Source of the DNA: Lachnospiraceae bacterium
Lineage (GTDB): Bacteria; Bacillota; Clostridia; Lachnospirales; Lachnospiraceae
Assembly: GCA_016281275.1 (NCBI GenBank)
Contig: JAEEIH010000063.1
Span: 1-37,536, forward strand
Length of the DNA stretch: 37,536 bases
Reading direction: 5' to 3'
The position numbers were made by a program, and so were the translations under genes. Positions 9,886 to 27,251 of the stretch are shown piece after piece. Under the pieces are notes generated by a model that did not search any database, had not been told where the DNA came from, and saw nothing but the letters and a program-made list of their open reading frames with translations. The first letter of the stretch is position 1. Every line of letters begins with the position of its first letter.

Positions 9886-12800
9886 TTAATCCATAACATC
9901 CTCAACGATTATTGTGGTAAGCGACTCCCTGTCGTTGAGGTTGTCTCTGTCCGCTCTGACACTCATGTTTGCAACGATCTGCTCAAAGAGATTTCGTACC
10001 TCACCCGCATTTCCGAAGTTGGAGCCCGCTTTTTCCTTTCTTTTCGCAAGGACCGTTCTAACCTTATCCAAAACTCCGTCGGAAAGCCTGAGCTCCGATT
10101 TTTTAACCATTGAGCAGAATATCTCAATAAGCTCGTCGGGAGAATAATCCTCAAAGTGTATCACACGCGGGAACCTGCGCGGAAGACCCGGATTTGACGC
10201 GAGGAATCTTTCCATCTCGTCGGGATATCCCGCAGCAATGCACATGAAATGCTCTTTCCTGTCCTCAAGCAGCTTTAACAATATATCGATCGCTTCCTTA
10301 CCGAAGTCGTTATCGGATTTGGGAACCAGTGTATATGCTTCATCAATGAACAGCACGCTTTCCATCGCACTGTCAACGACCTGCTGCGTCTTTATGGCCG
10401 TCTGTCCGACGTAACCCGCTACAAAGGCGCTTCTGTCACATTCTATAACATTACCCTTATTGAGAATTCCAAGACCCTTCATGATCGATCCTACAAGCCT
10501 GGCGACCGTGGTCTTGCCCGTTCCGGGGTTACCGCTGAATATCATGTGCATATTACCGATATCGTTTTCCTTAAGATTCATCTCTTTACGCTTTTTATTT
10601 GTCCTTATCAGTGAGACGAATTTACCGATCTCAGCTTTTACCGCTTCAAGTCCGATCATGTGCTCAAGCTCATCGAGAAGCTCCTCAACAGTCTTGGGAT
10701 GCTCGATCTCAACAATATCGTGACCGAGATCCTCTTTGATAATCGTTATTGCTTCATCATCATTCTTCCACGCAGGAATCCCCGCCAAACGGGATTGCAT
10801 ATTCATCAGAACCTCTTCGTAAAGGTTTCTGACTCCTCTGGCGTTTCCGAAATTATCCGTAACTTTCCTGCGCTCGTCAATAACGGCTTTGACGGCATCC
10901 TCAATACCGGGTTCGAGGATATAGCCTTTCTTTTTGCACATATTGCTGAAAATCTCAAACATTTCATCGAGAGTATAATCCTCGAATTCGATGTGCAAGG
11001 GGAATCGGCTCGCAAATCCTTCATTGTTCTTAATGAAATTATTCATATCGTCCGTATATCCGGCAAGGATCACAATCATTTTATCGCGATACAGATCAAG
11101 ATCCGCCACAAGGGTATCGATCGCTTCCAGACCGAAGCTGTCATCTTTGCCGCGGCACACCGAATAAGCCTCATCGATGAAAAGAACTCCGCCCACGGCT
11201 TCCAAAATTTTCTCGTGAACTACTTTCGCCGTTTTACCGACAAATTCAGAAACAAGATCCTTTCTTGTGGCAGTAACCACATGCCCTCTCGGTAGCAGCT
11301 CAAGCTCCCTGAATATATCTCCGAGGAGAGTCGCCACGGTTGTTTTACCGGTTCCGGCATGACCCATAAACATCATGTTCAGATTGGGGCGGTCTTCTTC
11401 ACCCTGACGCTGTATGTTTTGCTCTTTCACTCGCTTTTCGTAATTCAGCCTGTTAACAAGAGCCCTTATCTCCTTCTTTACCGACCCCAAACCCGTCAGA
11501 TCGTCCAGTTTCTTAAGATATTCCTCGAGAGTAACATGCTTAAAATTGATATTGAAATTATTAACCCTGAGCTTAACGCTTTCCTCATTCTTGATATGTC
11601 GCTTACCCATCAGTTCGTTAGCACGATCTGTGATAGCATGTTCAAGCACTTCCTCAACTCTGTGAATGTAATTGAATTTGGGGAGATCCATCTCGCCCTT
11701 AAAATACCGTTCAAGAACCGGATCGGCTGCCTCATCGACAGCATAAAGCCTCCCCTCGGCGATAATGTGCAGGAGCCTTACGTATTCCTGAGGCGTAAAG
11801 CCCTCAAGTGTGATCTTGTTTTTGAAAAGCTCCGAAAGCTTTCTGTTATTATCGATCACATTCTCAATCGGCTCTTTGTCACCGGTAATGATGAGTGTAA
11901 CCTTTTCTCCGGCGGCATGATATGCGCCGATGATCTTATCCGTGACGATCGCCTCTGCGGAATTCGGATTGTCGCTGTAGAATTCCTCAAAATGATCTAT
12001 AATGAGAGCACCGTCCATCGCGTTCTGGAATTCGTTCTGAATCTTTCCGTCGGTCTCTTCCTCATCCTTGCCCCTGAATGTCTCAAATTCGGTCAGGACT
12101 ATGTTCCCACTGATTGCGTTCATCTTCTTGAGGATCTCGGCTACCACACGTGCCGCGGTTGTACAACCCATGCCTCGGGCACCGAATATGACGAAATTCT
12201 TGCTGTTCTCATCCCTTGCACCGACGGCTATCCTCTTTTGCGCAATTTGGGAACGGTTGTAGTAATCACTAAGTCCCTGCTTTACACTTTCGAACCCGAC
12301 AAGACCATCCATCGAATTCTCAACGAGCTTCGGAATCTGTTTTTCCTTCTTTTTGGCTTCCTTCTTGGTTTCCTTCTTTACCTCGGGCTTGTCAGCCTCA
12401 GACTCATTATCCTTACCCGTGAACTTGTCGAAGATTCCGAAAAGACCTCCCCGTTTTTTGCCCGCTTTACTTTCACACGAGATCTTTTCAAGAGCACTGA
12501 CCACACTCTTTCTCCATTCGGTGATTTCAGCCTCGCTCATGTTGGCTTTTCTGCTGAAGGTGACCTCCCTCTCAATGTTGCCGTTATTGGGAAGACGGAC
12601 GTACATGTGGATCATCTGGTTGCGGTCAAGCTCGATCTTGATATGCACCTGTGTCCCCGCTGTAAGCTTTGCGGGAAGCTCTATGGTCGCAGTACAGATT
12701 TCCTTTACGTCGGAAAGCGTCTTGTAATCGCCTTCATTTATGGTTATGTAAAGCTTGCGCTGCCCGTCCTCAGCAAGCTTGAAAAGCTTTTCTGCCGATG

Positions 12801-14001
12801 CGGGGATTGTGGTGTTCCTCTCCATCAATATCTCGTTATACTCCGTACGGTTTTCGGGGTTAAACGCTGTGATACCGATACCGTGCGAGCACACGTCGGA
12901 AATCTTGCTGACATCTTTGCCGCCCTTAAGACTGTGTGCATAAAGGGCTGCGCCGAGAGCCACGACCTCATCGGGATTGACTTCATGAGAAGGCTCTTTC
13001 CCGAAAAGCTCCGTCAGCTTTTCAACAATATAAGGAATGCGGCTTGACCCTCCGACGAGGATCACTTTTTCAATGTCGGAAAGCTTAAGTCCTGCGTTCC
13101 TGACAGTATTTTTCACAACTTTTTCGGTATCGGAATAGAGCTTTTCAATCATTCCGTTGAACTGCTCTCTCGTGATCTCTATGTTCTCTCTGATCTTATC
13201 AACCTTAACGGGGATCATCGCCCTGCTGCTGCCCGAAAGCTGGATTTTTGCCTGCTCGGACTTTGAAATGACTTCCTGGTAATCGAAGACATATTCCGGT
13301 GTTTTAAGATCGATATTATGCTTTTTTTTGATCTCATCAACAACATAATCGGCAATAAAATTGTCAAAAAAGCTTCCGCCGAGCTTTGAACGACCACCCG
13401 TACCTTTAACGGTGATGTCCTTCCCCTTGACTTCTATAACGGTAGCATCAAAGGTTCCGCCCCCAAGATCGTAAACCAGGATGTACGAATTGTCGATTCC
13501 GGCTTTTGAAGCATAATAATACGCTGCTGCGGTAGGCTCGTTGATAAGGTCAACACACTTAAGACCCGCAATTGCGGCCGCCTGTTCGGTAGCCTTTCTC
13601 TGCGGATCGGTAAAATATGCGGGGATTGTGACAACGACATCGGTAATGGGATCCTCAAGATTTAAGTATTTGTTCGCGTCGCTGACGATCCTTTCGAGGA
13701 TTATCGCCGAAATCTGCTCCGGACGATATTCACCGTAGTCGGTAACGTAGGTTACAGGCTTGCCTGTCGAAGGATCCGGCTTTCCCATCGAGTTCTTGAC
13801 AAGAGAAATGACATTTTTAGGACTGATCACGCTGTTGTCCTTTGCCACCTGACCGACGACGACATTATCCTTGTTTTCAAAAAAAACGACCGAAGGCGTT
13901 GTGTTATCACCAAACGAGTTAGGTACAACACGCGCCTCACCTTTTTCATCGACATAAGCTCCGACCGAAAACGTCGTTCCAAGATCTATCCCCAGAACCA
14001 T
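9886..14001 (-). CDS. Hsp70 fused to three AAA+ (CbxX/CfxQ-type) domains
   Basis: A 1371-residue fusion. Residues 1-365 form an Hsp70 nucleotide-binding domain with GIDLGTT (4-10), VYDLGGGTFD (176-185) and VILVGGSSRIP (313-323). About 366-485 look like a divergent substrate-binding beta domain; no alpha lid follows. A Lys/Glu-rich linker runs 512-558. AAA+ 1 (about 560-800) is degenerate: its Walker A reads GARGMGCT, with Cys613 in place of Lys, and its Walker B reads IIDH. AAA+ 2 (825-1090) has intact GHAGTGKT (880-887) and FIDE (941-944). AAA+ 3 (1105-1371) has GNPGTGKT (1157-1164) and FIDE (1218-1221). Domains 2 and 3 resemble the CbxX/SpoVK/EccA group. The predicted role is ATP-driven protein remodelling. 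The ribosome binding site GGGGAGGA sets the start. Confidence 0.92.
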   Translation of the reverse strand: MVLGIDLGTTFSVGAYVDEKGEARVVPNSFGDNTTPSVVFFENKDNVVVGQVAKDNSVISPKNVISLVKNSMGKPDPSTGKPVTYVTDYGEYRPEQISAIILERIVSDANKYLNLEDPITDVVVTIPAYFTDPQRKATEQAAAIAGLKCVDLINEPTAAAYYYASKAGIDNSYILVYDLGGGTFDATVIEVKGKDITVKGTGGRSKLGGSFFDNFIADYVVDEIKKKHNIDLKTPEYVFDYQEVISKSEQAKIQLSGSSRAMIPVKVDKIRENIEITREQFNGMIEKLYSDTEKVVKNTVRNAGLKLSDIEKVILVGGSSRIPYIVEKLTELFGKEPSHEVNPDEVVALGAALYAHSLKGGKDVSKISDVCSHGIGITAFNPENRTEYNEILMERNTTIPASAEKLFKLAEDGQRKLYITINEGDYKTLSDVKEICTATIELPAKLTAGTQVHIKIELDRNQMIHMYVRLPNNGNIEREVTFSRKANMSEAEITEWRKSVVSALEKISCESKAGKKRGGLFGIFDKFTGKDNESEADKPEVKKETKKEAKKKEKQIPKLVENSMDGLVGFESVKQGLSDYYNRSQIAQKRIAVGARDENSKNFVIFGARGMGCTTAARVVAEILKKMNAISGNIVLTEFETFRGKDEEETDGKIQNEFQNAMDGALIIDHFEEFYSDNPNSAEAIVTDKIIGAYHAAGEKVTLIITGDKEPIENVIDNNRKLSELFKNKITLEGFTPQEYVRLLHIIAEGRLYAVDEAADPVLERYFKGEMDLPKFNYIHRVEEVLEHAITDRANELMGKRHIKNEESVKLRVNNFNINFKHVTLEEYLKKLDDLTGLGSVKKEIRALVNRLNYEKRVKEQNIQRQGEEDRPNLNMMFMGHAGTGKTTVATLLGDIFRELELLPRGHVVTATRKDLVSEFVGKTAKVVHEKILEAVGGVLFIDEAYSVCRGKDDSFGLEAIDTLVADLDLYRDKMIVILAGYTDDMNNFIKNNEGFASRFPLHIEFEDYTLDEMFEIFSNMCKKKGYILEPGIEDAVKAVIDERRKVTDNFGNARGVRNLYEEVLMNMQSRLAGIPAWKNDDEAITIIKEDLGHDIVEIEHPKTVEELLDELEHMIGLEAVKAEIGKFVSLIRTNKKRKEMNLKENDIGNMHMIFSGNPGTGKTTVARLVGSIMKGLGILNKGNVIECDRSAFVAGYVGQTAIKTQQVVDSAMESVLFIDEAYTLVPKSDNDFGKEAIDILLKLLEDRKEHFMCIAAGYPDEMERFLASNPGLPRRFPRVIHFEDYSPDELIEIFCSMVKKSELRLSDGVLDKVRTVLAKRKEKAGSNFGNAGEVRNLFEQIVANMSVRADRDNLNDRESLTTIIVEDVMD

Positions 14002-14085: not shown

Positions 14086-15012
14086 TCACGAAGCTTTTTT
14101 ATCTTGTTTAAATCTGAACCATGAACCTTCATAGAACTGAATGTCCGCAATCCCGAATTCGTCATATTTAGAACCGGGCCAAATTTTATCTATCATCAGG
14201 AAAAGCTCGCTTACTTCGAGATGTTCGCATTGAAAAATAACTTTTTTCGAATCGCTTTCAAGCTCGAATGATGAGCTTTCAAAAGCATCGGTGTCAGTCT
14301 CGTCCGATTTCGGATTCTTCTCGGTGAACCTGAAGCTCTTGACTCGTCCGTTCTTATTGTACAAATTATTGGGCACGGGTGTTCCGTTTGTCAGCACTAT
14401 ATAATCGATTTTCTGTTTCTCTTTGAACCTGAATCCAATATATTCGTTGATCGCATCGGTGTCAGTCCCTTTTTCAACGGTGACCTGCCAGTTGGTTTCC
14501 GGATCTCCGTCCATGGTATTTTGAGGAGTATGTTGCTTGAGCTGACCGCTTGCAACCGCATTCATGGGAGAAACTTTCGTCAATACATCAGTTGCTTCAT
14601 CGATGTCGGTAATGTAGGTAGCCAGATAGATCTTGGGTGACACATCTTCAATCTCTTCTGTTTGATTACTTGTTTCCTCCTGATAATCATAATCCGTATT
14701 ATCATCGGTCCTGTAGTAATCGTCATCACTCAATCTTCCGGTACTTGCCAGACATTTCATTTCTTCCAATGTGTACGGTGGCTCAAGGATATAGCCAATA
14801 TATTCATTATCGGATTGCTCGGTGAGCATTTCGCCAAATGTGCCGATATTTATGATCAAAATAACAACAGTCACGACCACTGCGGCAATCCAGTAAAAGA
14901 TTTTACGCTTGGCGCTGCTGATTCGTCTTCTGAAGAACGAAGAAAACACAATGATCACAGCGACTGCCGCTGCGAAAAGGATGAAAAACAAAATCGAATT
15001 ACCGGAAAACAT
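14086..15012 (-). CDS. Two-TM protein with NADase-type glycan-binding-like domain
   Basis: A 308-residue protein. Two hydrophobic segments (about 6-26 and 37-57) flank a short basic loop (FFRRRISSAKRK), which suggests both ends lie on the same, probably outer, face. An acidic spacer (about 65-125) follows. Residues about 145-305 form a beta-sandwich domain resembling the NADase-type glycan-binding / discoidin fold: PMNAVASGQLKQHTPQNTMD followed by GDPETNWQ, then IGFRFKEKQKIDYIVLTNG and NLYNKNGRVKSFRF. The ATG at 15012 has TTGGAG six bases upstream; a TTG 12 bases earlier is less likely. It is the first gene of the operon that continues with the Hsp70-AAA gene. Binding to a surface glycan is a family-based inference. 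Confidence 0.7.
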   Translation of the reverse strand: MFSGNSILFFILFAAAVAVIIVFSSFFRRRISSAKRKIFYWIAAVVVTVVILIINIGTFGEMLTEQSDNEYIGYILEPPYTLEEMKCLASTGRLSDDDYYRTDDNTDYDYQEETSNQTEEIEDVSPKIYLATYITDIDEATDVLTKVSPMNAVASGQLKQHTPQNTMDGDPETNWQVTVEKGTDTDAINEYIGFRFKEKQKIDYIVLTNGTPVPNNLYNKNGRVKSFRFTEKNPKSDETDTDAFESSSFELESDSKKVIFQCEHLEVSELFLMIDKIWPGSKYDEFGIADIQFYEGSWFRFKQDKKAS

Positions 15013-15060
15013 AATACACTCCAATTATTGTTTTTGATGATACGCAAAAGCACAATTATC

Positions 15061-16348: not shown

Positions 16349-19300
16349 TCATTCTATTCTCCGGCTGGAATATGTCAGGTAAGTACCCATTTCTGAAATT
16401 TTCTCAAAATCCAGTAATTCAACCGCTATAACATTGTTACCTATCAATCCCTTAAATGATGCTATGCCACTGTTACTGATCTCTTCGGAAACCAAGAGAT
16501 CATCATCACGGGATGAGACCTCGATCACAGCCTTTCCGGGATTTGAAGGATCTGTTGTTGTTACCGTTCCGTTGTTCTTGAGAGCTATATCAAACTCAGG
16601 TTGCGAATCATCGCCTTTATCACACAGCACCTCGCACAACAATTCTCCGTCAAGTACAAACGATGCTCCGGAGGCGATCACAAGCTTCATACTGTCTCCC
16701 GCCAGGATATATGAGTCTTTACCTACGTTCAGAGTGCCTTTTATACTAACATCGCAGCCATCATATCCTCTTAATACGCTTTTTTTACCCTTCAGATTGA
16801 TCGAGCTTCCCGACGCAACCTCAACACCCATCGTAATGTTGGCATAATCACCCAGATTGATCTCTTTTCCATCGCCCTCAAAAATGACTACAGCGGGTAA
16901 CACCAATGTAATGTGTTCAAAGTCTATTCCATTCGTTCCGCCTAAATTGAAGTGAACTTTCGCCGAAACAGGATCTCCGTTTTCATCCTCGTATTCCCTA
17001 TCGATCCTTCTCTGAATAGCCTTCAGACCCCATATGGAATCGGTTGTGAACTCATATCCGTTATCAGCAACGCTGTACCTTCCGATAACGAACTTACCCT
17101 TGTCATCGGTAAACACAGACGCATGCTCATCTATATCGATAGCAGGGAACACCACATTCAGAATAAGCTCCATATCTGCTTCCAATTCATCATGGTTTAT
17201 ATCGGGCTCTAATTCCGCGAGATTTCTCGCAAGCTCAACCAAGCTCTCTGCCAGCTCCTTGCGGTAATTGGTTATTTCGAATCGAACCGTTCCTTCTGCT
17301 CCGAAAGCTGTGTTCAAAGCAGTATAATCAACAGATCCGTTCTTGTTAGTAATAATCGAATCATAAAAGTCTGCATCGGGAACGTCTCTATACATCGATA
17401 TGACGAAACTGATGAACATTTCATGCGTTTCTGAATCTTCCTCTTTCGTTATTTTAATCTTCACCGGATCATCCAAAAGAGCCTTAAAGGTGTAGTCTCC
17501 GATCGTGATCCGGGCATCCTTTTCAAGAGTAACGCGTGTTTCGCCCGTAGCCTCGATAAGAAGCTCTCCGCCTCGAACCGCGTTTTTATCGGCACAAAGA
17601 CCGGTTACGGTGAGTGAAGCACCGCACGAAAGAGCAAGCTCGGAATCCTCGCCCAAAACAAGCACGGTATCTTCGCCGAGCGTGACATCCACGCCGTTCA
17701 ATTCCGTGTTAACGAATACTTCTTCTCCGTCTTCAAGCGCACTGTACGAATAAACCTTTACAGGCTTTTTGCCGTTGTACCCGGCATCAGCCTCGGTTCC
17801 GTTAAGTACCACATTCTTAAATTCCGGTTCTCTCTTTAGTATTTTATAGCTCCGGCTGACGTACTTCGTGCTCTCCCCGACAGCCATGAGTTCCTGACCG
17901 TTATTAACGGTCAGCGTCGAACCGGGACGCAAAAGCTCGCCGTTGACAGGACTCGGGATCACTTCAAAGGCTTCCGCACCGCCGACGGACATCATCAGAT
18001 CAAACTCGCTTCCGTTGTTGACCTTTGACAGCTTGACGGTATCGCCACTCTTACCGGAAACGAAGTTGACCAGATTACTGCCGCTGTTATATTGCAGGCT
18101 TGGTGTGCTGTCTTCATTGGGTTGTGCAAAGAATATTTTGTCTCCCAACTTGACAGTACTCTGTATTCCTCTGAGTATGGCAACAGTATGTTCGCTTTCA
18201 ACAGAAGATTTGATATCCTTTACTTCGAGCTTGCCCCTGACCTTAATCGAAGGATGCTCACACATCTCTGCCTCAAGGTATTTCGGTGAGCCGCAAAACG
18301 CTCTTTCGTCGAGAACGAATGTCTCTCCGACAAGAGTATTTTTAATGTTGACATTGACAGTTTTTGTTATGTGGAAAACGTCACGCGAGACTGTAACAGT
18401 GATGTTGTCCTCCGTAGCACTGTAGCTGATTCCTTCAGGTGCGGTCTTGCCTGCATTTTCAGCGAGCCCGATCTGGTCGTGGAGTCCACGGTTGAGGTAC
18501 ACCTGAAGCCAATCGGTGTCATCGATCGTGTTCAGCAGCATCGGCTCTTCGACACCCTTAAACATGATCGTCTGCTTATCAACCAGGATATTGGGAGTGT
18601 ATGAGAGGCGAACCGAAGTGTATGTTTTATCCTTTTCCAACTCAGGCAAATCCCATACATCAAGATTATAATCGCATACATAACCCCCGAATGCTTCGGG
18701 TAGTTTTGCGGGATCCGGTCCGTCGATCAGAAGCTCCTGTCCCTCGAGATTGATCCAGACATCACGGGTAAAAATAGGATCGTAGCTTGATGTATCTTCG
18801 TTATAAAGTGCATTCCCTTCTATTCTTGTATGAATCGAAACCTGGACACAGTCGCGGACTTCCGATCCCGCTGTGCTCTTGAAAGAGAAGTCACCGATCG
18901 TTAATTCAGATCCGTCGGAAAGCATGATAAATGTTTCGTTATCATCGACATCGTCAAGAACGGTATCATATCCGTCCTTGTCAAGCAGAAGCTTACCGCC
19001 GTTCGCCACCTTGATCTCAGCATTTGTGTTGAAGATTATCTTTTTCCCGCGCGCATCAAGCGTGTATGCTCCGAGCTCGAGTGTTACATTCTCGGGAATT
19101 GTAAGGTCGGACGAGAGCGTTACGTTAAATGTAAGTCGCACCTTGTCAAATTCCTTGGCTGCGGAAAGATCGTTTCTGAGCTGCTGTTCGGGACTCACAT
19201 AAGGAACATAGGACTCACCTGAAGAAGTGCTGCCCGTAGAAGCGGTCTCATCAACCTTCTTCTCGTCCTTTTTTTCTTCCTTTTTATCATCCTTCTTATC

Positions 19301-20188
19301 GGTCGCGGTGTCATCCTTCTTTTCCTCAGTCGAAGAAGTTTCCTCCTTGCCGACATAATTCTCGGAAACTATTTCTTCACCGGTTTCAACCTTCTGTGTC
19401 TTTCCCTCTGTATCCTTAACAGCGACCGTTTCCTCTGTATTGTTCTCAAGCTTGACTCCGGCAGTCTCCTCTTTAATGGTAACCTTCGAGTTCTCAGCGC
19501 CTTTATCGAGCTTGAGCTCAACGTCCGCATAGGCATTGACGCTGACAGGAACCTCAGACTTGACCGAAGCTCCGACTGCATCCTTCCGGACGGTCACCTT
19601 GAGGCTTTCCTCAGAGGTTCCTCTGACGCTTATGTCAGCTGCCGCGCCGACGTAGAGACGACCGACCTCGCCGTTCTGCGTCAGTTCCACCTTGACTTCG
19701 CTCTTAACGGCAACCTTTTCGATACCGCCGTTGTTAACGACCTTGACCGTACCTGTTTCCGAAGCGATCGTCAGCTTTTCAACAGACGAATTCTCCATCG
19801 CCTTAAAGGTGAGCTTCTCATCATTGACAGTGATCTTGTTGCCGGAAGCATATTCCTTGACGGTCTTAGCCTCGTTTATCGTGATGCTTGACACCTTTGC
19901 CTTACTCTTAATGGTGGCATTGGGTGCATCAACAACTATCTGAAGATTATCAGAGCTGTATTTAGCACTTAAAGTGAAAGTACTGCTCTCATTGGTCTCA
20001 ATTATGATCTTAACCTTCGAGCCGGACGACTTGTACTTTTTAAGTGCCGCCTCAAGCTCTTCCTGCGTTGTTACAGTAATTGTCTTGGTTTTCTTCTTTG
20101 CCGCTTCCGCATTATTAGCCGGTAAAACGCCGACAACAAGGGCAAGCGCTGCAATAATAACAACCATGCGTTTTAAGAATTGCTTCAT
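16349..20188 (-). CDS. Large secreted beta-rich surface protein
   Basis: A 1279-residue exported protein. The start at 20188 has AAGGAGG six bases upstream, followed by a clear signal peptide (MKQFLKRMVVIIAALALVVG, cleavage after about residue 29, NNAEA). Residues 35-275 are Val/Lys/Glu/Thr-rich strands. Residues about 278-335 form a charged Lys/Asp/Glu then Ser/Thr linker, and the rest (335-1279) is beta-solenoid-like, with repeated short strands and turns such as SELTIGDFSFKS and ARITIGDYTFKA, apparently a duplicated module. I see no LPxTG motif, S-layer homology repeat or C-terminal membrane helix, so the attachment mode is unclear. Function unknown; adhesin or wall-associated scaffold is a guess. 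It has its own promoter and terminator, and lies between the TIR/SLOG operon and hydE. Confidence 0.75.
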   Translation of the reverse strand: MKQFLKRMVVIIAALALVVGVLPANNAEAAKKKTKTITVTTQEELEAALKKYKSSGSKVKIIIETNESSTFTLSAKYSSDNLQIVVDAPNATIKSKAKVSSITINEAKTVKEYASGNKITVNDEKLTFKAMENSSVEKLTIASETGTVKVVNNGGIEKVAVKSEVKVELTQNGEVGRLYVGAAADISVRGTSEESLKVTVRKDAVGASVKSEVPVSVNAYADVELKLDKGAENSKVTIKEETAGVKLENNTEETVAVKDTEGKTQKVETGEEIVSENYVGKEETSSTEEKKDDTATDKKDDKKEEKKDEKKVDETASTGSTSSGESYVPYVSPEQQLRNDLSAAKEFDKVRLTFNVTLSSDLTIPENVTLELGAYTLDARGKKIIFNTNAEIKVANGGKLLLDKDGYDTVLDDVDDNETFIMLSDGSELTIGDFSFKSTAGSEVRDCVQVSIHTRIEGNALYNEDTSSYDPIFTRDVWINLEGQELLIDGPDPAKLPEAFGGYVCDYNLDVWDLPELEKDKTYTSVRLSYTPNILVDKQTIMFKGVEEPMLLNTIDDTDWLQVYLNRGLHDQIGLAENAGKTAPEGISYSATEDNITVTVSRDVFHITKTVNVNIKNTLVGETFVLDERAFCGSPKYLEAEMCEHPSIKVRGKLEVKDIKSSVESEHTVAILRGIQSTVKLGDKIFFAQPNEDSTPSLQYNSGSNLVNFVSGKSGDTVKLSKVNNGSEFDLMMSVGGAEAFEVIPSPVNGELLRPGSTLTVNNGQELMAVGESTKYVSRSYKILKREPEFKNVVLNGTEADAGYNGKKPVKVYSYSALEDGEEVFVNTELNGVDVTLGEDTVLVLGEDSELALSCGASLTVTGLCADKNAVRGGELLIEATGETRVTLEKDARITIGDYTFKALLDDPVKIKITKEEDSETHEMFISFVISMYRDVPDADFYDSIITNKNGSVDYTALNTAFGAEGTVRFEITNYRKELAESLVELARNLAELEPDINHDELEADMELILNVVFPAIDIDEHASVFTDDKGKFVIGRYSVADNGYEFTTDSIWGLKAIQRRIDREYEDENGDPVSAKVHFNLGGTNGIDFEHITLVLPAVVIFEGDGKEINLGDYANITMGVEVASGSSINLKGKKSVLRGYDGCDVSIKGTLNVGKDSYILAGDSMKLVIASGASFVLDGELLCEVLCDKGDDSQPEFDIALKNNGTVTTTDPSNPGKAVIEVSSRDDDLLVSEEISNSGIASFKGLIGNNVIAVELLDFEKISEMGTYLTYSSRRIE

Positions 20189-20241
20189 GGAATCCTCCTT
20201 AAATAAATTACGGCTCATCCCGGCCGCACCGATTGACTACC

Positions 20242-20270
20242 ATAATACAACGAAAAAGATAAAAAAACAA
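20242..20270 (-). promoter_or_regulatory. Promoter for the surface-protein gene
   Basis: On the minus strand TTGTTT (20265-20270) and TATTAT (20242-20247) are 17 bp apart. The -35 box overlaps the T run of the preceding terminator. It leaves a leader of about 45 nt before the start at 20188. Confidence 0.45.
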
Positions 20271-20297
20271 CAAGGGCAGGAAACAAGATTCCCGCCC
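20261..20297 (-). terminator. Terminator of the TIR/SLOG operon
   Basis: On the minus strand GGGCGGGAA-(loop)-TTTCCTGCCC is followed by TTGTTG and seven T. The stem spans 20274-20297 and lies about 40 bp after the esterase stop at 20338. Confidence 0.8.
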
Positions 20298-20337: not shown

Positions 20338-21225
20338 TCATTTGACGGTTTCGTAGAAATCAAGTACAAGCTTGTTCGTATCAAGCCCACCCGATTCCTC
20401 TGTCGGCCAGCAGTGCTTAGTTTCTGCCACAAGCACTCCCCATACTGCGTCCTTATCTCCGTCAGCGCCGTACTTCTGAACGATCGAGCCGTCCCCGACG
20501 GCTTCCGTTCCCCGGAGCGCAAGTCCGTTTGATGACGCCATGTATTCGACTACATCTTCGATTGCCGGATCAAGAGCTGTCTTGGCCGATTCGTCAAAAT
20601 TCTTGGGAACCGATTCATCCATTTCGCCGACAACCACAAGCATGCTCACATCATTCTTCTCGGGACGCGTTTTCCAAAGCGGCTTGCAAAGGTCTCCTCC
20701 GACAGAGACACACGCGCGGAAGACATCCTGCGCTTCGAGAGCCAGTCGGAAATTCATAAACCCGCCGTTAGAGAATCCGGCGCAATACACATGATCCTTA
20801 TCCAATGAATATTCATCAATAAGATAATTGACCACCGACTTGATAAATCCCACGTCGTCATAATCCCCTTCGCTTCTTCCGTAATTCCAGCTGCACGAGT
20901 TTCTTCCTTTTTTCCCGTTGATCGAGCCGGTAATATAACAAACCGCATAGCCGAGCGCATTCGCTTCCTTCTCGAATCCGATCTGCTGTCTGAAGTTTTC
21001 AGCCGAATCACCCGATCCGTGAAGGATGATCACAAGCGGCGCGTCCTCACTTTTTTCAGGAAGACATACAACAAAATCATGCTTCACTTCCTCGTACGTA
21101 CACTTTACTTTGTTGCCTTCTTTTTCAATGTTTTCAAGCTTGCTGCCCGAGGAACATCCCGTGAGAGCAAAGACGGTCAAAACTGCCACGATCATAAAAA
21201 GTACATACAAATATCTTTTCTTCAT
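20338..21225 (-). CDS. Lipoprotein alpha/beta-hydrolase, esterase (LpqC/feruloyl-esterase-like)
   Basis: A 295-residue lipoprotein. An N-terminal hydrophobic signal ends in the lipobox LTGC (Cys24), so it should be anchored on the outer face of the membrane. The fold matches the LpqC / PHB-depolymerase-like / feruloyl esterase group: HGSGDSAENF (oxyanion region, 69-78), the nucleophile elbow GFSNGG with Ser152, Asp203 in GEMDES, and His271 in TKHCWP. The reaction is probably ester hydrolysis on a plant or surface polymer; the substrate is unknown. The ATG at 21225 has AAAGGA eight bases upstream, while the ATG three codons earlier would be too close. It is the last gene of the TIR/SLOG operon, separated from the SLOG gene by degenerate tandem repeats. 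Confidence 0.85.
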   Translation of the reverse strand: MKKRYLYVLFMIVAVLTVFALTGCSSGSKLENIEKEGNKVKCTYEEVKHDFVVCLPEKSEDAPLVIILHGSGDSAENFRQQIGFEKEANALGYAVCYITGSINGKKGRNSCSWNYGRSEGDYDDVGFIKSVVNYLIDEYSLDKDHVYCAGFSNGGFMNFRLALEAQDVFRACVSVGGDLCKPLWKTRPEKNDVSMLVVVGEMDESVPKNFDESAKTALDPAIEDVVEYMASSNGLALRGTEAVGDGSIVQKYGADGDKDAVWGVLVAETKHCWPTEESGGLDTNKLVLDFYETVK

Positions 21226-21254
21226 AAATACCATCCTTTCTAATTCCGAGTGTC

Positions 21255-21430
21255 GGTTCCGTTAATGCTTTTATTCGTGTTAAAACCATACGATGGATGT
21301 GTGGGTTCCGTTAATGCTTTTATTCGTGTTCGTTAAAACCATACGATGGACGTGTGGGTTCCGTTATAGGTTTTATTATGTTCCGGAAAATTCAGCTGAT
21401 GGGCGTATCGGTTCCGTTAATGCTTTTATA
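21255..21430. repeat. Tandem repeat grown from the 3' end of the SLOG gene
   Basis: Four units begin GGTTCCGTTA at 21255, 21304, 21357 and 21410, giving periods of 49, 53 and 53 bp. The unit at 21410 is inside the coding end of the SLOG gene, where it encodes KSINGTDTP. The other three lie after the stop and carry decayed copies (KSINGTHTS-like). The two units farthest from the gene are nearly identical; the third is more diverged. Confidence 0.85.
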
Positions 21431-23197
21431 GGCGAACCATCTGCCGTTCTCATTCAGTTCTTCCCGTGCGAGCGTCCTGCAGAGTTCTCCCTTATCCATT
21501 CCGTTCTCATCACGTTCAAGCGCCTCGCCGTAAAGAGCAGCCATTCTCCTGCTGTCATTCGCCCTTTCCTCAAGAGACAACTTGCCGTAGTAACTCCCGG
21601 TAAAAAGCGATATAGCGGACAGGCTGCCTGTGCAGAGTTTGATTATCGTTCTGACGGATTCAGCGGCATCGGGTTCCATGAGGGAATTTCCCGAAAAAAG
21701 ACCGGCGATGCATATTTCAAATATAAGAGCGGCAATATATACGGCAACGGTTATGCCAATGGCGATTTTTACAATTCTGTCATTCCGTTTTGCTTTCGCG
21801 GTGGCTGACTTTACCACTGTCTCATGGTATTCTTTTTGTTCCTTTATCCAGCGTATATGAAGATTGTCACATAACGCGGATTCGGAAGCGTTTTCCCGTG
21901 CGCCGGAGGATGCGGGTGAGTTTTCCGGATAATGCGGCGAATCACCGATATTGACCGCTGCCATGGTCCTGATGATCCACGGTGTTTCAACCTGTATCGA
22001 CCAGGGCATCAAATCCGAAGCCTGAACATCCATCCTAACCGACGAAAGCGCTTTCTGTACTCTCAACCCCTCGGCAAGTATTCTGTATTGAATATATTTC
22101 CTGTGGAACCCGCGCCTGCAGTTCGTCACATTTACCGCATATACGCCCGCGATCATCACCCCGCACAAAATTATCAGATAGTGCATGTTTGCTTCATCAT
22201 ACAGAAGAAACGACATCGTGAGCAATGTCGCCATTACGGCGATCAGCGCGATACACTTTTTATATTCCCTCGCTCCGCGAAGGCTGAGTCTGTCGGAAGC
22301 ATCATAAACGTCATCAATGGTTGCGCGGTGAAAGCCGGCTTCGTGATGTGTTTCTTTTTTTTCGACTTTGCCGTTTTCATGACAAGCTTCTTCTCCCGCT
22401 CTTTTTGACCTTGATTTTACCCTTCTTCTTTTGTTCATTCGAAGTACGTCGCAGTTAAATTCTTCGGTTCTTTTAAGATTTTCACGGAACACGTCCTCAC
22501 TTCCGAGAAATATCACAGATCCGGCAGATGTCGATTTTTCTGCACATTCATTTTTAATTTCGGCGGTTATTGTACCTATTTCATTCTTGTTTTTTTCTTG
22601 TTGCTTTGCAATGCGCACGTTTTCCCTCATAACCGGAACGTGCATGACGCATCCCTTGTCGGCTAAAAAGCCTCCCGCGTGGTTCATGCGCGTATTGCCG
22701 TGGAGCATGATGTCCACGATCTCATTGGTTCCGCACCCACCGGGTACGGGGGGCGTTCCGTCCCACAATGCCACAAGAATGTGGCTGTGACGAGCCACAT
22801 AAATTCCTGCCTGCCGGTACAAAAAGTCTCTGCCCTCGCGATATTCTTCCTCAAAAGGTGAAACAAACACCTCATCCGCCAATCCTGCAAGTCTTTTCAG
22901 ATTTTCAAGGTCGTCGCCCTCAAAATCCTTTTCATATTCATCAAGAGGCATCGGCAAAACCGCTATAAGCCCGATCTTTTCTTCGATGGCAACCTGTGCG
23001 CAGATCTGGTCAGCCCCCTTCGCAAGACTCGAGAGCATAACAACAGGCGTGTTCGGACAAAGCGCGGACAGACTTCTTATCTGCCCGCGCACTGTTTTCC
23101 CTGCACGCTTCAAATCTTCATCACATATGTCCCGGTGACCGGTCACGCCGATCACAAATGGGATGCATGTTTTTTTTACAGTCATATCTTTTTCCAT
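21392..23197 (-). CDS. SLOG-domain protein with four C-terminal membrane helices (SLATT-like)
   Basis: A 601-residue protein. The N-terminal Rossmann-like domain (about 12-220) has SLOG/LOG-family features: IGVTGHRD (16-23), SSLAKGAD (56-63), VALWDG (142-147) and a Gly-rich GGCGTNEIVD loop. It is therefore predicted to bind a nucleotide-derived ligand. A basic Lys/Arg linker follows. Two membrane helix pairs lie at about 315-333/338-357 and 475-500/517-535. The segment YRILAEGLRVQ (371-381) after the first pair and the LEERANDSRRMAALYGEAL tail after the second recall the SLATT membrane effectors paired with SLOG and SMODS systems. I infer a ligand-gated membrane protein. GGAGGAGA precedes the ATG at 23197, with long spacing. 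It follows the TIR gene by 34 bp. Confidence 0.75.
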   Translation of the reverse strand: MEKDMTVKKTCIPFVIGVTGHRDICDEDLKRAGKTVRGQIRSLSALCPNTPVVMLSSLAKGADQICAQVAIEEKIGLIAVLPMPLDEYEKDFEGDDLENLKRLAGLADEVFVSPFEEEYREGRDFLYRQAGIYVARHSHILVALWDGTPPVPGGCGTNEIVDIMLHGNTRMNHAGGFLADKGCVMHVPVMRENVRIAKQQEKNKNEIGTITAEIKNECAEKSTSAGSVIFLGSEDVFRENLKRTEEFNCDVLRMNKRRRVKSRSKRAGEEACHENGKVEKKETHHEAGFHRATIDDVYDASDRLSLRGAREYKKCIALIAVMATLLTMSFLLYDEANMHYLIILCGVMIAGVYAVNVTNCRRGFHRKYIQYRILAEGLRVQKALSSVRMDVQASDLMPWSIQVETPWIIRTMAAVNIGDSPHYPENSPASSGARENASESALCDNLHIRWIKEQKEYHETVVKSATAKAKRNDRIVKIAIGITVAVYIAALIFEICIAGLFSGNSLMEPDAAESVRTIIKLCTGSLSAISLFTGSYYGKLSLEERANDSRRMAALYGEALERDENGMDKGELCRTLAREELNENGRWFAYKSINGTDTPIS

Positions 23198-23231
23198 GTT
23201 ATACCGGTCTCTCCTCCCCCGGGTTCTCCCG

Positions 23232-25589
23232 TCACGGATTAAGATTTCTGTCGATACCCGTTGAGATATTGCTGTTGCCAAGTCTCTCCTTCAGGACTCC
23301 CTCGCCCCAGTTGTAAAATTCATCAATTTCTTCATCGGTATAATCCCCGAGGAACGCTCCGAAGATTAAAGCTTTACCGCTTCCCTTAACGGTTCCCTTG
23401 TTCACGAACCATACACCACGGGCCATCGAGCCGTCGGGTGTCACGTTATGCATTACGGATCCGCAATTGAACGTTCCGTTCAGGTTGAGAGTCGCGCCCG
23501 AAAGATTGTTGAAGGTTCCTCCGAACATACTCTGGAGCTGTCCGCCCGACTTGACATCGACGGTTCCGTAGTTCATGATGCATTCTTCACCACCCTGTGT
23601 ACACCAGAGCTTTCCACCCGATTCAACAACGATCTTCGCACCTTTTTGTATTGTTATGCATGCCTGAAGGAGACCTCCGTTTGCTATCGTGAGCGTCCTT
23701 CCCGAAGGAACTTCGACAGTCCAAAGTCCTCCGAGTTCTTTGTCTATCTTAAAATCGTCCATGATCTTAATGTTCGTACTGTAGGAATCCCCTGCCTGAA
23801 CTCCCTCAAACCATTCATCACCGTAGGATTCTGCCTCCGCGGCGGTCATGGGAATTTCCCTGATCTCCTTCATGGCTGCCTGGTTATAAACCTCCCACTT
23901 GTTCCCACCGAGACTGTTATATTTTGCCACCTCCGGAGTCGGCGTTGCGGTAGGCGCCGGGGTAGGAGTAGGGGTGGGATCGGGCGTGGGTGTCGCCGTA
24001 GGAACCGGTGTCGCCGTGGGTGTCGGTGCTGCCGTGGGTGTCGGCACCGGAGTTGCAGTAGGAGTAGGAACAGGAGTAGGTGTGGGTGTGGGAACGGGAG
24101 CCGTTTCTGCGCCTTCCGTATCCCCGCCGGCTAATGTCACATCGCCTTCACCGGCATCTGCACCTATCGCGTCAAGACCTTCTTCCGCGCCGGTATCATC
24201 CGTGCCTTCGTTATTGTCAGCTGTCGCGTTTTCTCCTGCGCCTGCATTTCCATCGTTATTAATGCCGTCAGCTGCGTCCGCATTACCGTCCGCACCTGCA
24301 TTATCGTCTTCTCCGTTGTCGGTGTTCGCTCCGCCCGTCAGGTCACCGGTTACCGTATTACCTTCATTATTGTCGGAAGCGCCGACGGATCCCGGGAGAT
24401 CTTCATATTCTTCAAGGTTGCTCGTGTTATCGGCATCAACAGAAACGGGAGCGGTTCCGTGGATCACATAATACTTGCCTGCGATCTCGAAGACGATCTC
24501 ACCGCCGTCCGTTGCAACAACAAGATCAATGATATTATTTTTCGAAACTCTGAGTCCGGCGGGAATACTCTGCGCATCCACATGAGCGTTTTCCCGTCCC
24601 GTGCCGAGTGTCGGCGAAAGCACAAACTTCTTCATCCCCGCTGCGATGAGCATCGCTGCCGCATCACTGATATGGTGAGTCACGGTGTCGGGCACATCTG
24701 TCAGGTTCTCCTCGGGTCCGAGGCTCTGCCTGATGATGACAGGCATGAATCGGAAATTAATTCCGCTCCTGCTCTGCGCAAATATCTTTCCGAACGGATA
24801 TTTGTCCGAATAGTCGTTGCTTATATCACAATCAAAGCCCGCTTCTTCTATCATTTCACGCGCCGCCTGTGCATCCATGTCGATAACGTCGGGTACATCC
24901 TTAAACGCGATAAGAAATGTTGCGACAGCCAATGCCGCAATAACGACAAGTATGATAATTACCCTCGTCATGATCTTTTTGCGCCTCATTTTGCTTCCGA
25001 GCATAATCTTACGCGTGAGAGCCGTGCTGCCTGATGCTTCCGCGCTACCGGATACTGTCCCGACGGCTGACACCGCATCCGATGCTGTCCCGATGCTTCC
25101 TTCCGAGCTCCCGGTTGATGCCTTAGTGTCTCCCGATGCGGCATTAATGCTTTCTCCCGCAAATGTTCCCTCACCCTTCAAAGCACCGGCAACTGCGCTC
25201 ACAAATTCACCGTAGGTCTTAAAGCTTCTGAGCGATACCGTCTGGTTAACAAACAGGATTTTCTCAAGATCTGCCGGAAATGCTACATTTCCTATGGTCA
25301 CCGTGAGAATCTTGATCCCTTTTTCGTGCGCGAATACAATCTCTCGCTTCACATTATCTCTTTTGACCGATTTCGACGAGGCGCAAAAAAGGACGATCCC
25401 CGCTTTTTCGATGTTCGTACCGATAACACCGGCCCAATCCGTTCCGGGGTCGATTCCCTCGTCATACCACACACGGTAAGACGCGCTCTGAAGTGCCTCG
25501 ATAAGCGGCAGAACATCATCGCTGTCCTTGTGCGCGTAGCTGACAAAAATGTACTTCTCGTTTCCTTTGTAAGCCGTTGGTCTGCTCAT
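23232..25589 (-). CDS. TIR / TM / PASTA / Pro-Thr stalk / beta-solenoid receptor-like protein
   Basis: A 785-residue protein. Residues 12-135 form a TIR domain: YIFVSYAHKDSDD (13-25), VWYDEGIDPGTDW (40-52), and KREIVFAHEKG, where Glu83 matches the position of the catalytic Glu of NAD-cleaving TIRs. A Ser/Gly/Ala linker and a basic segment (KMRRKKIMTR) precede one membrane helix (210-229), so TIR should be cytosolic. Outside are two PASTA-like repeats (231-290, 298-360; DVPDV... and ...AQSIPAG), an acidic Asn/Gly/Asp region (385-495), a Pro-Thr stalk (498-552), and a beta-solenoid-like end (about 600-760). PASTA modules usually bind peptidoglycan or related ligands. The start at 25589 has GGGAGG six bases upstream. 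No kinase domain is present. Confidence 0.85.
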   Translation of the reverse strand: MSRPTAYKGNEKYIFVSYAHKDSDDVLPLIEALQSASYRVWYDEGIDPGTDWAGVIGTNIEKAGIVLFCASSKSVKRDNVKREIVFAHEKGIKILTVTIGNVAFPADLEKILFVNQTVSLRSFKTYGEFVSAVAGALKGEGTFAGESINAASGDTKASTGSSEGSIGTASDAVSAVGTVSGSAEASGSTALTRKIMLGSKMRRKKIMTRVIIILVVIAALAVATFLIAFKDVPDVIDMDAQAAREMIEEAGFDCDISNDYSDKYPFGKIFAQSRSGINFRFMPVIIRQSLGPEENLTDVPDTVTHHISDAAAMLIAAGMKKFVLSPTLGTGRENAHVDAQSIPAGLRVSKNNIIDLVVATDGGEIVFEIAGKYYVIHGTAPVSVDADNTSNLEEYEDLPGSVGASDNNEGNTVTGDLTGGANTDNGEDDNAGADGNADAADGINNDGNAGAGENATADNNEGTDDTGAEEGLDAIGADAGEGDVTLAGGDTEGAETAPVPTPTPTPVPTPTATPVPTPTAAPTPTATPVPTATPTPDPTPTPTPAPTATPTPEVAKYNSLGGNKWEVYNQAAMKEIREIPMTAAEAESYGDEWFEGVQAGDSYSTNIKIMDDFKIDKELGGLWTVEVPSGRTLTIANGGLLQACITIQKGAKIVVESGGKLWCTQGGEECIMNYGTVDVKSGGQLQSMFGGTFNNLSGATLNLNGTFNCGSVMHNVTPDGSMARGVWFVNKGTVKGSGKALIFGAFLGDYTDEEIDEFYNWGEGVLKERLGNSNISTGIDRNLNP
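23937..24106 (-). repeat. Microsatellite-like Pro-Thr coding repeat
   Basis: Imperfect short repeats of GGTGTX/GGAGTX type encode the PTPTP/PTATPV stalk of the TIR/PASTA protein. The reading frame is intact. Such tracts change length easily, so stalk length may vary between strains. Confidence 0.75.
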
Positions 25590-25626
25590 TTTTTTCCTCC
25601 CTTTTGTACCACTCTTTCCAATGCTT

Positions 25627-26514
25627 CTATTGTTTAACATCAACACCGCTTAGGAACGATGTCGCTGTATAGTCGCTGATCGGATTGTCGCTTAAATCTA
25701 CCTTGGTGAGATTCTTCAACGTCAGGAGCACATTGATATCCTTTATCCTGTTTCCCGAGACATTCAGTATTCTTATGTTTGAAAGTTTACTTAAAACGCT
25801 TATATCACTTACCCTGTTGTCACTTATATCAAGCTCTTTACATGCCGTACACTCCGATAGGAACGAGATATCCTCGATCCCCTTTCCGGAAAGGTCTATT
25901 TTCTCTCTCGATTTTAATTCATCAACATCGATACCGAGCAGTTCCTCCGTTGTACTCTCGGGGAGAGCTGTTTGTGTCAGGGTCGATCCCGTGAGAAGGG
26001 ATACAAGTATCACGGTACAGGATATCACAAACGCTGCTGCCAGCACGCAGACCATGATCTTGATGTTCTTCTTTCTCCTTCCGGCGCGAACCTTTTCTCC
26101 GACCGACGTCAACCAGGCCGTGAGCTCTCTTTCCGATGTTTCGGAAGTTTGCCCTTCACCGGTCCGGTCATCGACAGCATTTTGGGTTCGTCCTTCACCG
26201 GTCAAACCGTTGCCCGATCCGGTAACTCCCATGGACGGTACCTTTGCGGCTATGGCAAGCTGAATGTTAAGACCGGCATCGGGCACGCCGCCGTCTTCGA
26301 TCACATATGCGACAGAAAGACCTCTGTCAAGCGCCAGATTAAGATTCTCTTTTATTTCTCTGTTTTCTTTTCCGGCGATACAGATAAAAAGAGCGTCCGC
26401 ATTCAGTAATTCGCGGGCGCTCCCCGTAAAGATCTCATGTCCCGCGCCTCTGATGCATTCCTCATATGATCCCCGCGGCTTTACGTCCGAGGAATATGTA
26501 CAGAAAATCTTCAC
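25627..26514 (-). CDS. TIR-like / TM / leucine-rich-repeat receptor-like protein
   Basis: A 295-residue protein. Residues 1-95 form a small Rossmann-like domain: KIFCTYSSD (2-10), ADALFICIAGKE (39-50), then NREIKENLNLALDRGLSVAY. This resembles a divergent TIR, though a SLOG or deoxyribosyltransferase-like fold is also possible. A basic segment (KVRAGRRKKNIK, 141-152) precedes one membrane helix (153-175), so the N-terminus is cytosolic. Outside, residues about 195-290 carry about four internalin-type LRRs (KIDLSGKGIEDISFLSE, ELDISDNRVSDISVLSK, ILNVSGNRIKDINVLLT, KVDLSDNPISDYT). The start is GTG with GAGGAG nine bases upstream. It is 37 bp before the TIR/PASTA gene and 76 bp after dtxR, with no terminator between. 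Confidence 0.8.
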   Translation of the reverse strand: MKIFCTYSSDVKPRGSYEECIRGAGHEIFTGSARELLNADALFICIAGKENREIKENLNLALDRGLSVAYVIEDGGVPDAGLNIQLAIAAKVPSMGVTGSGNGLTGEGRTQNAVDDRTGEGQTSETSERELTAWLTSVGEKVRAGRRKKNIKIMVCVLAAAFVISCTVILVSLLTGSTLTQTALPESTTEELLGIDVDELKSREKIDLSGKGIEDISFLSECTACKELDISDNRVSDISVLSKLSNIRILNVSGNRIKDINVLLTLKNLTKVDLSDNPISDYTATSFLSGVDVKQ

Positions 26515-26532
26515 GAAACCAATCTCCTCATT

Positions 26533-26553
26533 AGCGGCTGTTTTTTCGCCGCT
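26533..26553 (-). promoter_or_regulatory. Leader hairpin before the LRR gene
   Basis: AGCGGC-(9 nt)-GCCGCT on the minus strand, ending three bases before the TGAGGAG ribosome binding site of the gene at 26514. It is the second member of the hairpin/GAGGAG family. It has no T run, so it is not a terminator for dtxR. Confidence 0.5.
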
Positions 26554-26590
26554 GTTTCCTTGTCGTATACTTGACTATTTACCAAACAAT

Positions 26591-26956
26591 TCATTCAATG
26601 TGTCCGGCTACATATCTCTTAAGGGCATCAAACGTCACGGCACTGATGTCATGCTCGATCTTGCATGCATCTTCCGCTGCAACGGCTTCATCGACTCCGA
26701 GTTTGACAAGTATCTTTGTGAGAACCACATGACGTTCATAGATTGTCTGAGCAATCTCAAGTCCCTTCTTTGTGAGAGTCAGAAAACCCTCGGGTGACAT
26801 ATTGAGATAGCCGTCATCCTTAAGCTTGTTAACAGCCCTGCTGACCGAAGGCTTTGAAAAATTCATGTAATCCGCCACATCTATCGATCTGACAGATGCT
26901 TTCTCCTTTGAAAGCACAAGTATCGTTTCAAGATACATCTCTCCCGATTCACGCAT
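26591..26956 (-). CDS. DtxR-family metal-dependent transcriptional regulator
   Basis: A 121-residue regulator with an N-terminal winged helix (recognition region about 24-46, IDVADYMNFSKPSVSRAV) and the metal-binding/dimerisation domain, without the C-terminal SH3-like domain, as in MntR-sized members. Possible ligands are Met7, Glu10, His76, Cys98, Glu101 and His102. The EMYLE and CKIEH patterns follow DtxR/IdeR (Met, Cys, Glu, His) more than MntR, so iron sensing is my inference. AGAGGAGG precedes the ATG. It is the first gene of the apparent operon with the LRR, TIR, SLOG and esterase genes. I found no canonical DtxR box in the upstream region. Confidence 0.88.
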   Translation of the reverse strand: MRESGEMYLETILVLSKEKASVRSIDVADYMNFSKPSVSRAVNKLKDDGYLNMSPEGFLTLTKKGLEIAQTIYERHVVLTKILVKLGVDEAVAAEDACKIEHDISAVTFDALKRYVAGHIE

Positions 26957-27092: not shown

Positions 27093-27121
27093 ATTTTATT
27101 TGATTTACGGTGATTTATCAA
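27093..27121 (-). promoter_or_regulatory. Promoter for the dtxR/TIR/SLOG operon
   Basis: On the minus strand TTGATA (27116-27121) and TAAAAT (27093-27098) are 17 bp apart. It leaves a leader of about 130 nt before dtxR. This is the best promoter candidate upstream of all five genes down to 20338. Confidence 0.6.
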
Positions 27122-27168
27122 CCCGGATTATTCCGTATTTATAATTCATTCACAAACCAAACAAAACG

Positions 27169-27199
27169 TAAAAAGAGCCTCACCGAATCGGAGAGGCTC
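27169..27199 (-). terminator. Terminator after rpsO
   Basis: On the minus strand GAGCCTC and GAGGCTC (27193-27199 / 27175-27181) form a 7-bp stem with an inner CCG/CGG extension, followed by five T. It lies 53 bp after the rpsO stop and closes the rimP-rpsO block. Confidence 0.88.
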
Positions 27200-27251
27200 C
27201 ATTATTGTTTTGATCTGAAATGTACGGCTTAATGTCTTACCGACACAACAA

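Follow-up and report, generated by a model that had tools for sequence, protein, structure and literature searches.

In the 37,536-nucleotide contig JAEEIH010000063.1 of a Lachnospiraceae bacterium (assembly GCA_016281275.1), the whole of which is hereafter called the window, five adjacent genes on the minus strand include one for a membrane-anchored TIR protein with an outside sensor and, next to it, one for a membrane protein in which a SLOG domain is joined to SLATT-like helices. This gut bacterium pairs membrane-anchored TIR sensors of the immune type with a predicted nucleotide-sensing membrane protein, and the pairing, which recurs in distant relatives, appears to be a signalling pathway that so far bears no separate name. 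So far, TIR–nucleotide–SLOG signalling has been known mainly from Thoeris anti-phage defence, whereas here an outside sensor stands in front of the TIR domain and the response would take place in the membrane. In addition, a host protein with a ryanodine-receptor-type (RyR) domain and an HD-like part (HD–RyR) is tied to TIR genes, shortly after the report of phage RyR proteins that destroy cyclic ADP-ribose (cADPR) signals. We consider it an even prospect that these parts form a resident membrane-surveillance pathway with NAD-derived signalling, in which the SLOG–SLATT protein would act as responder and HD–RyR as reset. The original prediction, made from the sequence of the window alone, described the five genes as one operon and linked TIR activity to a SLOG-gated membrane response; the five genes and the TIR–SLOG linkage have held, while the HD–RyR partner had been missed and the regulator and esterase genes of the operon no longer count as core parts.

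Three proteins of the operon carry this reading, and are encoded as follows.

25627..26514, minus strand: protein of 295 aa with a diverged TIR-like domain (about residues 1-96), a transmembrane helix at 153-171 (by hydropathy) and leucine-rich repeats (LRR) at about 183-295
23232..25589, minus strand: protein of 785 aa with a TIR domain (TIR_2, 1.1e-16), a transmembrane helix (210-228), a PASTA segment (2.7e-13), a Pro/Thr linker and a beta-helix-like part
21392..23197, minus strand: protein of 601 aa with a SLOG domain (about residues 12-230) and four long membrane-type helices in two hairpins (SLATT-like)

The TIR assignment of the 785-aa protein is clear from its profile match, the closest solved TIR being 8qlo (1.9e-4), and Glu83, at the catalytic position, is kept in all six rows of the clade. 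PADLOC models of Thoeris and of other TIR proteins match the window's TIR, and the ThsB_TIR model falls below its cut-off (17.9 vs 21.2 bits). The PASTA segment is also matched by NF033483 at 2.2e-11, under the cut-off of that model, and the C-terminal domain is common to other secreted proteins of the genus, which implies no function. The claim of two TIR-type receptors in the window stands for this protein; in the 295-aa protein, which matches LRR_4 at 5e-15, the TIR-like domain is diverged. The predicted model of the latter shows beta-alpha alternation at residues 2-92 as well as the LRR, and its N-terminal domain aligns with canonical TIR domains at an hhalign P of 2.6e-4 and a probability of 42%. 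Alignment by hhalign with two TIR-related classes described below gave no support for a TIR reading, being out of register with the short class and yielding nothing with the long class; the Foldseek and VIA matches listed for this protein are all to LRR and have no bearing either way on the N-terminal domain. Since MAFFT and hhalign place different residues at the Glu position, loss of the Glu is likely, not certain, and the window's first TIR, a diverged one, probably lacks the catalytic residue.

The 601-aa protein has the SLOG domain and the two membrane-type hairpins that had been foreseen for a SLOG membrane protein with four helices, and the TIR and SLOG folds, on whose presence the original prediction had been made to depend, hold for these two proteins. 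The SLOG fold is nearest to that of YpsA, not ThsA; the ThsA SLOG structure 7uxs is among its fold matches (Foldseek rank 23, E 0.094, probability 0.96), and STALD, the family name for the ThsA kind of SLOG, gave no match to the window's SLOG at E<=1. In the SLOG part, the motifs GxTGHR and GCGT are near-invariant. Glu159 is kept in just 29 of 46 relatives and residue 160 is Ile in the window's protein, so that a catalytic Glu of the LOG type is not evident. The helical hairpins are seen in the predicted model; the matches to SLATT_4, SLATT_3 and DUF4231 all lie under the curated cut-offs, and DUF4231 reaches E<=0.001 in 24 of the 46 relatives. A comparison of the SLOG–SLATT profile with PDB sequences returned a single weak match (KtrA, E 0.019, 33 residues), which was taken as chance and set aside.

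The strongest support for the pairing comes from outside the window's clade. Species genomes were scanned with the SLOG–SLATT alignment, and 80 of 93 relatives were kept as loci; nine of these had no SLOG open reading frame (ORF) under a longest-ORF rule and were left out, which gave 71 scored loci. Many loci come from ruminant or gut Clostridia, and some from Methanobrevibacter. A TIR gene lies within five ORFs in 23 of the 71 loci, a TIR or TIR-like gene in 30 (three of them from the window's clade), an HD–RyR gene in 29, and any of the three in 41; one further locus (L126) opens with a partial TIR, recognised by eye, that the TIR model did not count. When the loci were clustered at 60% identity (n=32), the corresponding numbers were 12 for TIR or TIR-like, 16 for HD–RyR and 19 for any. 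TIR matches are concentrated near the SLOG–SLATT gene (36 of 641 near ORFs vs 1 of 204 farther ORFs, p 6e-4), and TIR_2 is above its cut-off in 47 of 50 genomes with a SLOG–SLATT gene (SLOG+ genomes; 50 of 75 loci, taken in list order) vs 35 of 61 relatives. A sample of 291 genomes drawn from the class, own genome included, contained three with a strong SLOG–SLATT match, namely the own genome and two (G271, G172) of one genus in another family than the window. In both of these loci (L179, L180) a TIR gene (2e-28, 5e-30), whose protein carries WD-like repeats by eye, lies immediately upstream of the SLOG–SLATT gene; as SLOG+ genomes hold a mean of 2.8 TIR_2 genes, this adjacency is not expected by chance, the two loci being mutually non-independent. 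The search for the genes together in other genomes, which had been set beforehand as the trial of the original prediction, has accordingly left it standing, with SLOG–SLATT and membrane TIR genes adjoining outside the clade. As a separate observation, six Methanobrevibacter loci (L136, L137, L141, L143, L144, L150) match the membrane half of the query only (from about residue 254 or 294 to 600), as if the SLATT-like part stood alone there, and several of them have common neighbours.

Several of these loci are arrays of TIR-related genes. At L082, L085, L088, L095 and L117 the gene order is a short TIR, a canonical TIR with LRR, a long TIR-like–LRR protein, HD–RyR and SLOG–SLATT. The short and long classes are TIR-related by hhalign (P 6.5e-19 and 2e-8, respectively), and among the 43 array proteins scanned TIR_2 is found in 13 and LRR_4 in 32, both on a single chain in the canonical member L082:1867-3018. 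The Glu is missing in 7 of 8 short and 12 of 14 long class proteins and is kept in 11 of 11 canonical TIRs; judging by these residues, the arrays often seem to consist of one catalytic TIR and mostly Glu-less TIRs. A more compact set is found at L122, where SLOG–SLATT, a TIR–PASTA protein (PASTA under the cut-off), an LRR protein that matches that of the window at 26% identity, and HD–RyR are adjacent. The frequent absence of the Glu from the TIR-like partners would suit an explanation in which the TIR domains are scaffolds, not enzymes, of a wall- or surface-binding receptor complex while the SLOG protein senses an unrelated metabolite, and the outside parts of the TIR and LRR proteins do resemble secreted surface domains. 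We regard this as unlikely, because one TIR per set keeps its Glu, as in all the canonical array members and all six clade rows, and because the repeated presence of a linked RyR protein suggests signalling by a nucleotide.

The HD–RyR (c1) family, of 573-725 aa in the rows read, has a C-terminal RyR domain. A profile of 24 members matches RyR structures at 4.7e-12, and PF02026 is found at E<=0.001 in six of the 24; the RyR-type residues E-H..W and D are invariant in all of them, as are the counterparts of phage RyR H75, W78 and D117 (motif spacing by eye; H100 was not assigned). The fold and the pocket residues of RyR are therefore judged, by profile and alignment, to be present in the partner protein. 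The HD profile reaches 0.032 for one member and 0.001 for none of the 24, and the HD label rests on invariant H..H, HD and DH residues. With E below 1e-100 as the mark of a strong match, HD–RyR is present in 37 of the 50 SLOG+ genomes vs 3 of 290 drawn class genomes other than the own (Fisher 7e-35, kinship uncorrected), at least one of the 37 (G105) being split by a contig end; at E<=0.001 the numbers are 45 of 50 and 15 of 290. A TIR match lies at most 10 kb from HD–RyR in 26 of the 37 genomes, and in one genome without a SLOG–SLATT match (G367) HD–RyR adjoins a TIR gene. The window's own genome encodes HD–RyR on another contig (G000:C66), apart from the operon. A 2026 preprint describes phage RyR proteins that bind or cleave 2'cADPR and 3'cADPR (PMC13232231). 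The flow could also run in reverse, with SLOG acting on a nucleotide (nucleosidase-like or signal-clearing) and HD–RyR serving as effector or sensor; the near-invariant SLOG motifs and the invariant HD-like residues speak for such a scheme, whereas the patchy Glu159, the Ile160 of the window's protein and the membrane helices carried by the SLOG protein make it very unlikely.

Within the window's own clade, surveyed in 61 genomes (own and 60 relatives), the metalloregulator gene (DtxR), TIR-like–LRR and TIR–PASTA occur in the same order in six genomes of the same genus (G000, G002, G011, G014, G017, G023). SLOG–SLATT is next in four of the six, in G023 only after an extra copy of the esterase; in G002 and G014 the contig ends before its position, and G014 carries a different SLOG–SLATT elsewhere (L012). 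The gene adjoining this second copy (L131 10581-11546) is 37% identical to another (L157 204-1166), which lies about 8 kb from the HD–RyR gene of G016, after which come TIR-like genes. The cassette is patchily present within the genus and, where present, occupies a fixed chromosomal site among housekeeping genes across the clade. The same parts might serve anti-phage abortive infection as a membrane version of Thoeris, in which the TIR proteins would detect infection at the envelope and SLOG–SLATT would kill or arrest the cell. Patchiness would fit this, as would the PADLOC matches to the TIR; TIR with SLOG follows the logic of Thoeris (PMC11204291, PMC7272460, PMC9503650), and PMC9503650 also gives SLATT as predicted to alter membrane permeability in antiviral systems. 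It is doubtful, however, in view of the fixed site and of outside PASTA, LRR and beta-helix parts that suit envelope sensing. Moreover, SLOG–SLATT had no match in 50,697 phage records, and nine plasmid records match it partially, within residues 6-198 only; on these grounds a phage- or plasmid-borne system was dropped from consideration.

The remaining features of the operon, which lies in a source genome of 2.4 Mb and 83% completeness whose nearest named relatives include metagenome-assembled genomes of ruminant Lachnospiraceae (L072, L073), are as follows.

27160..27208, minus strand: terminator hairpin behind rpsO, the upstream operon edge (fold -18.2 kcal/mol, z -4.25, then a T-run)
27093..27121, minus strand: promoter-like site, 10/12 consensus matches
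26591..26956, minus strand: DtxR/MntR-type metalloregulator, 121 aa (Fe_dep_repress 4e-14, Fe_dep_repr_C 8e-13)
20338..21234, minus strand: lipoprotein-like alpha/beta-hydrolase (esterase), 298 aa, with matches to PHB-esterase-type families
20274..20297, minus strand: intrinsic terminator, the downstream operon edge (9-pair stem with 6 G-C, T-run, fold z -5.66)

Five real genes lie between strong terminator hairpins at both ends, the downstream one having been placed at 20261-20297 in the earlier reading and refound at 20274..20297, and with gaps of 76, 37, 34 and about 157 nt, in order, they are likely to form a single transcript. The promoter that had been proposed at 27093-27121 did not hold up, such sites being indistinguishable from chance (14 sites vs 10.2, standard deviation 3.1, in shuffles). 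The gap between the SLOG and esterase genes is filled by a 53-nt direct repeat in four copies (62-100% identity, window 21230-21437), the last of which reaches into the SLOG gene at its 3' end. Ahead of the five genes, on the same strand, lie nusA, infB and a DHH phosphatase gene (by Pfam) and rbfA-, truB-, ribF- and rpsO-like genes (by eye). After the operon comes a 1289-aa secreted protein (16349-20218) without a Pfam match at E<=0.001, homologues of which follow the operon in G017 and G023. Farther on are a protein with an NADase_transloc (F5/8 type C) domain (5e-14, 14086-15024), a few kb from the TIR operon, and a single chain of 1371 aa with HSP70 and AAA ATPase domains (9886-14001).

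Relatives of the DtxR protein are present in 54 of the 61 genomes, and the cassette starts with DtxR in each of the six clade genomes that carry it. In three other same-genus genomes read (L066, L067, L068) its orthologue instead adjoins feoAB-like genes (names by eye), whereas in the window's clade the TIR genes come after it; DtxR was therefore dropped as a core part. Five genomes (the own one, G002, G011, G017 and G023) have the esterase beside a TIR or SLOG gene. Both had been counted as members of the set, and both now look like clade-specific neighbours. An ordinary metal-regulated surface operon under DtxR, made of surface proteins and an esterase and with TIR and SLOG incidental, would agree with the leading position of DtxR and with the beta-helix surface protein that follows in the window, G017 and G023, but is most improbable given that the DtxR orthologue lies away from TIR genes beside the feoAB-like ones, and that TIR and SLOG–SLATT occur together without DtxR in distant genomes.

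The surveillance pathway that we favour would operate as follows, the order of its steps being taken from predicted topology and from the precedents of Thoeris, predicted SLATT function and the phage RyR proteins. The membrane-anchored TIR proteins would present an outside sensor, made of PASTA and beta-helix or of LRR, or of WD-type repeats in other lineages. Upon an envelope event, the catalytic inside TIR would convert NAD to an ADP-ribose-type signal, and the diverged TIR-like–LRR protein might serve as its co-receptor or scaffold. SLOG would bind the signal, and the SLATT-like membrane part would change state, through altered permeability or depolarisation; finally, HD–RyR, encoded elsewhere in the genome, would bind or destroy the signal and so reset the system. 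Envelope surveillance is favoured by the PASTA and LRR parts and by the fixed chromosomal site; phage defence is a rival to be taken seriously. A number of observations weigh against the pathway. No TIR, TIR-like or HD–RyR gene lies within five ORFs in 30 of the 71 loci, and the counts are not independent, because the SLOG+ genomes examined are for the most part gut Clostridia related to one another. There is no SLOG–SLATT anywhere in the G002 assembly. HD–RyR is missing from two genomes of the window's clade (G002 and G023), no strong match to it is present in the SLOG–SLATT genomes G271 and G172, and G229, G296 and G367 match HD–RyR strongly without a match to SLOG–SLATT. Within the drawn sample, no genome other than the own has both HD–RyR and SLOG–SLATT. 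The SLATT and HD labels, furthermore, rest on sub-threshold matches or motifs.

If true, the scheme would tie TIR, a signal of the ADPR type, RyR and a response in the membrane into one bacterial pathway. A native role of host RyR domains would become testable, for which compact sets such as the four adjacent genes of L122 are suited. Among the matches listed in the literature, searched at the level of titles and abstract openings, this gene set was not found described, and we do not claim that it is unpublished.

Among known systems, Thoeris consists of a ThsB TIR with a ThsA that is either SIR2–SLOG or transmembrane–macro. The window resembles it in that a TIR protein adjoins a SLOG-domain protein and that the TIR has the catalytic-position Glu, a ThsB-like feature. 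It differs in that its TIR sits on a membrane anchor and has an outside sensor, its SLOG is nearest to YpsA, the output is a membrane SLATT-like bundle and a separate HD–RyR accompanies it; in its working it would be a Thoeris whose receptor and effector have both shifted to the membrane. No SIR2 or macro match at E<=1 was found in six proteins scanned, nor a ThsA model match at E<=0.1 in five; since this effector feature of ThsA is absent, the system was not filed under Thoeris. SLATT nucleotide-signal systems were reportedly predicted by Burroughs and Aravind, a 2015 Burroughs paper being said to be the source of the SLOG and SLATT names. In these systems a SLATT membrane protein has TIR or SLOG proteins as neighbours, and an adjacent predicted maker of the nucleotide signal is likewise found here, in the form of a TIR gene immediately upstream in the window, L179 and L180; here, by contrast, SLOG is fused to two SLATT-like hairpins, HD–RyR is linked, and the TIR proteins occur in arrays with outside LRR, PASTA or WD-type sensors. 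PMC9503650 and PMC7159879 describe neighbourhoods of TIR with SLATT and regard SLATT as a membrane effector under nucleotide control, and the window's system fits, by analogy, this general prediction of SLATT responding to nucleotide signals. With the phage RyR-domain proteins (RyDEP, PMC13232231) HD–RyR shares the pocket His, Trp and Asp at the same spacing (by eye), but it is encoded by the bacterial host, fused to an HD-like part and linked to that host's own TIR genes. PASTA serine/threonine kinases (PknB/Stk1) also have an outside PASTA segment after a transmembrane helix, the inside domain here being TIR, not kinase. Finally, animal Toll-like receptors have LRR outside, one transmembrane helix and TIR inside on one chain, as does, for example, L082:1867-3018 by its inferred topology. 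The TIR domain here is N-terminal, in reversed order, no adaptor proteins were seen, and the window's own LRR protein bears merely a diverged TIR-like domain; the origin is probably independent. Tentatively, and at rather less than an even prospect, we suggest a bacterial counterpart of these receptors, which would give host RyR domains, kin to the R12 domain of the ryanodine receptor, a native part in bacterial cyclic-ADPR signalling alongside a membrane effector; in it, outward LRR, PASTA or WD-type receptors, an inside TIR with dead TIR partners, a cyclic-ADPR-type messenger, a SLOG-gated channel and a host HD–RyR eraser would work together.

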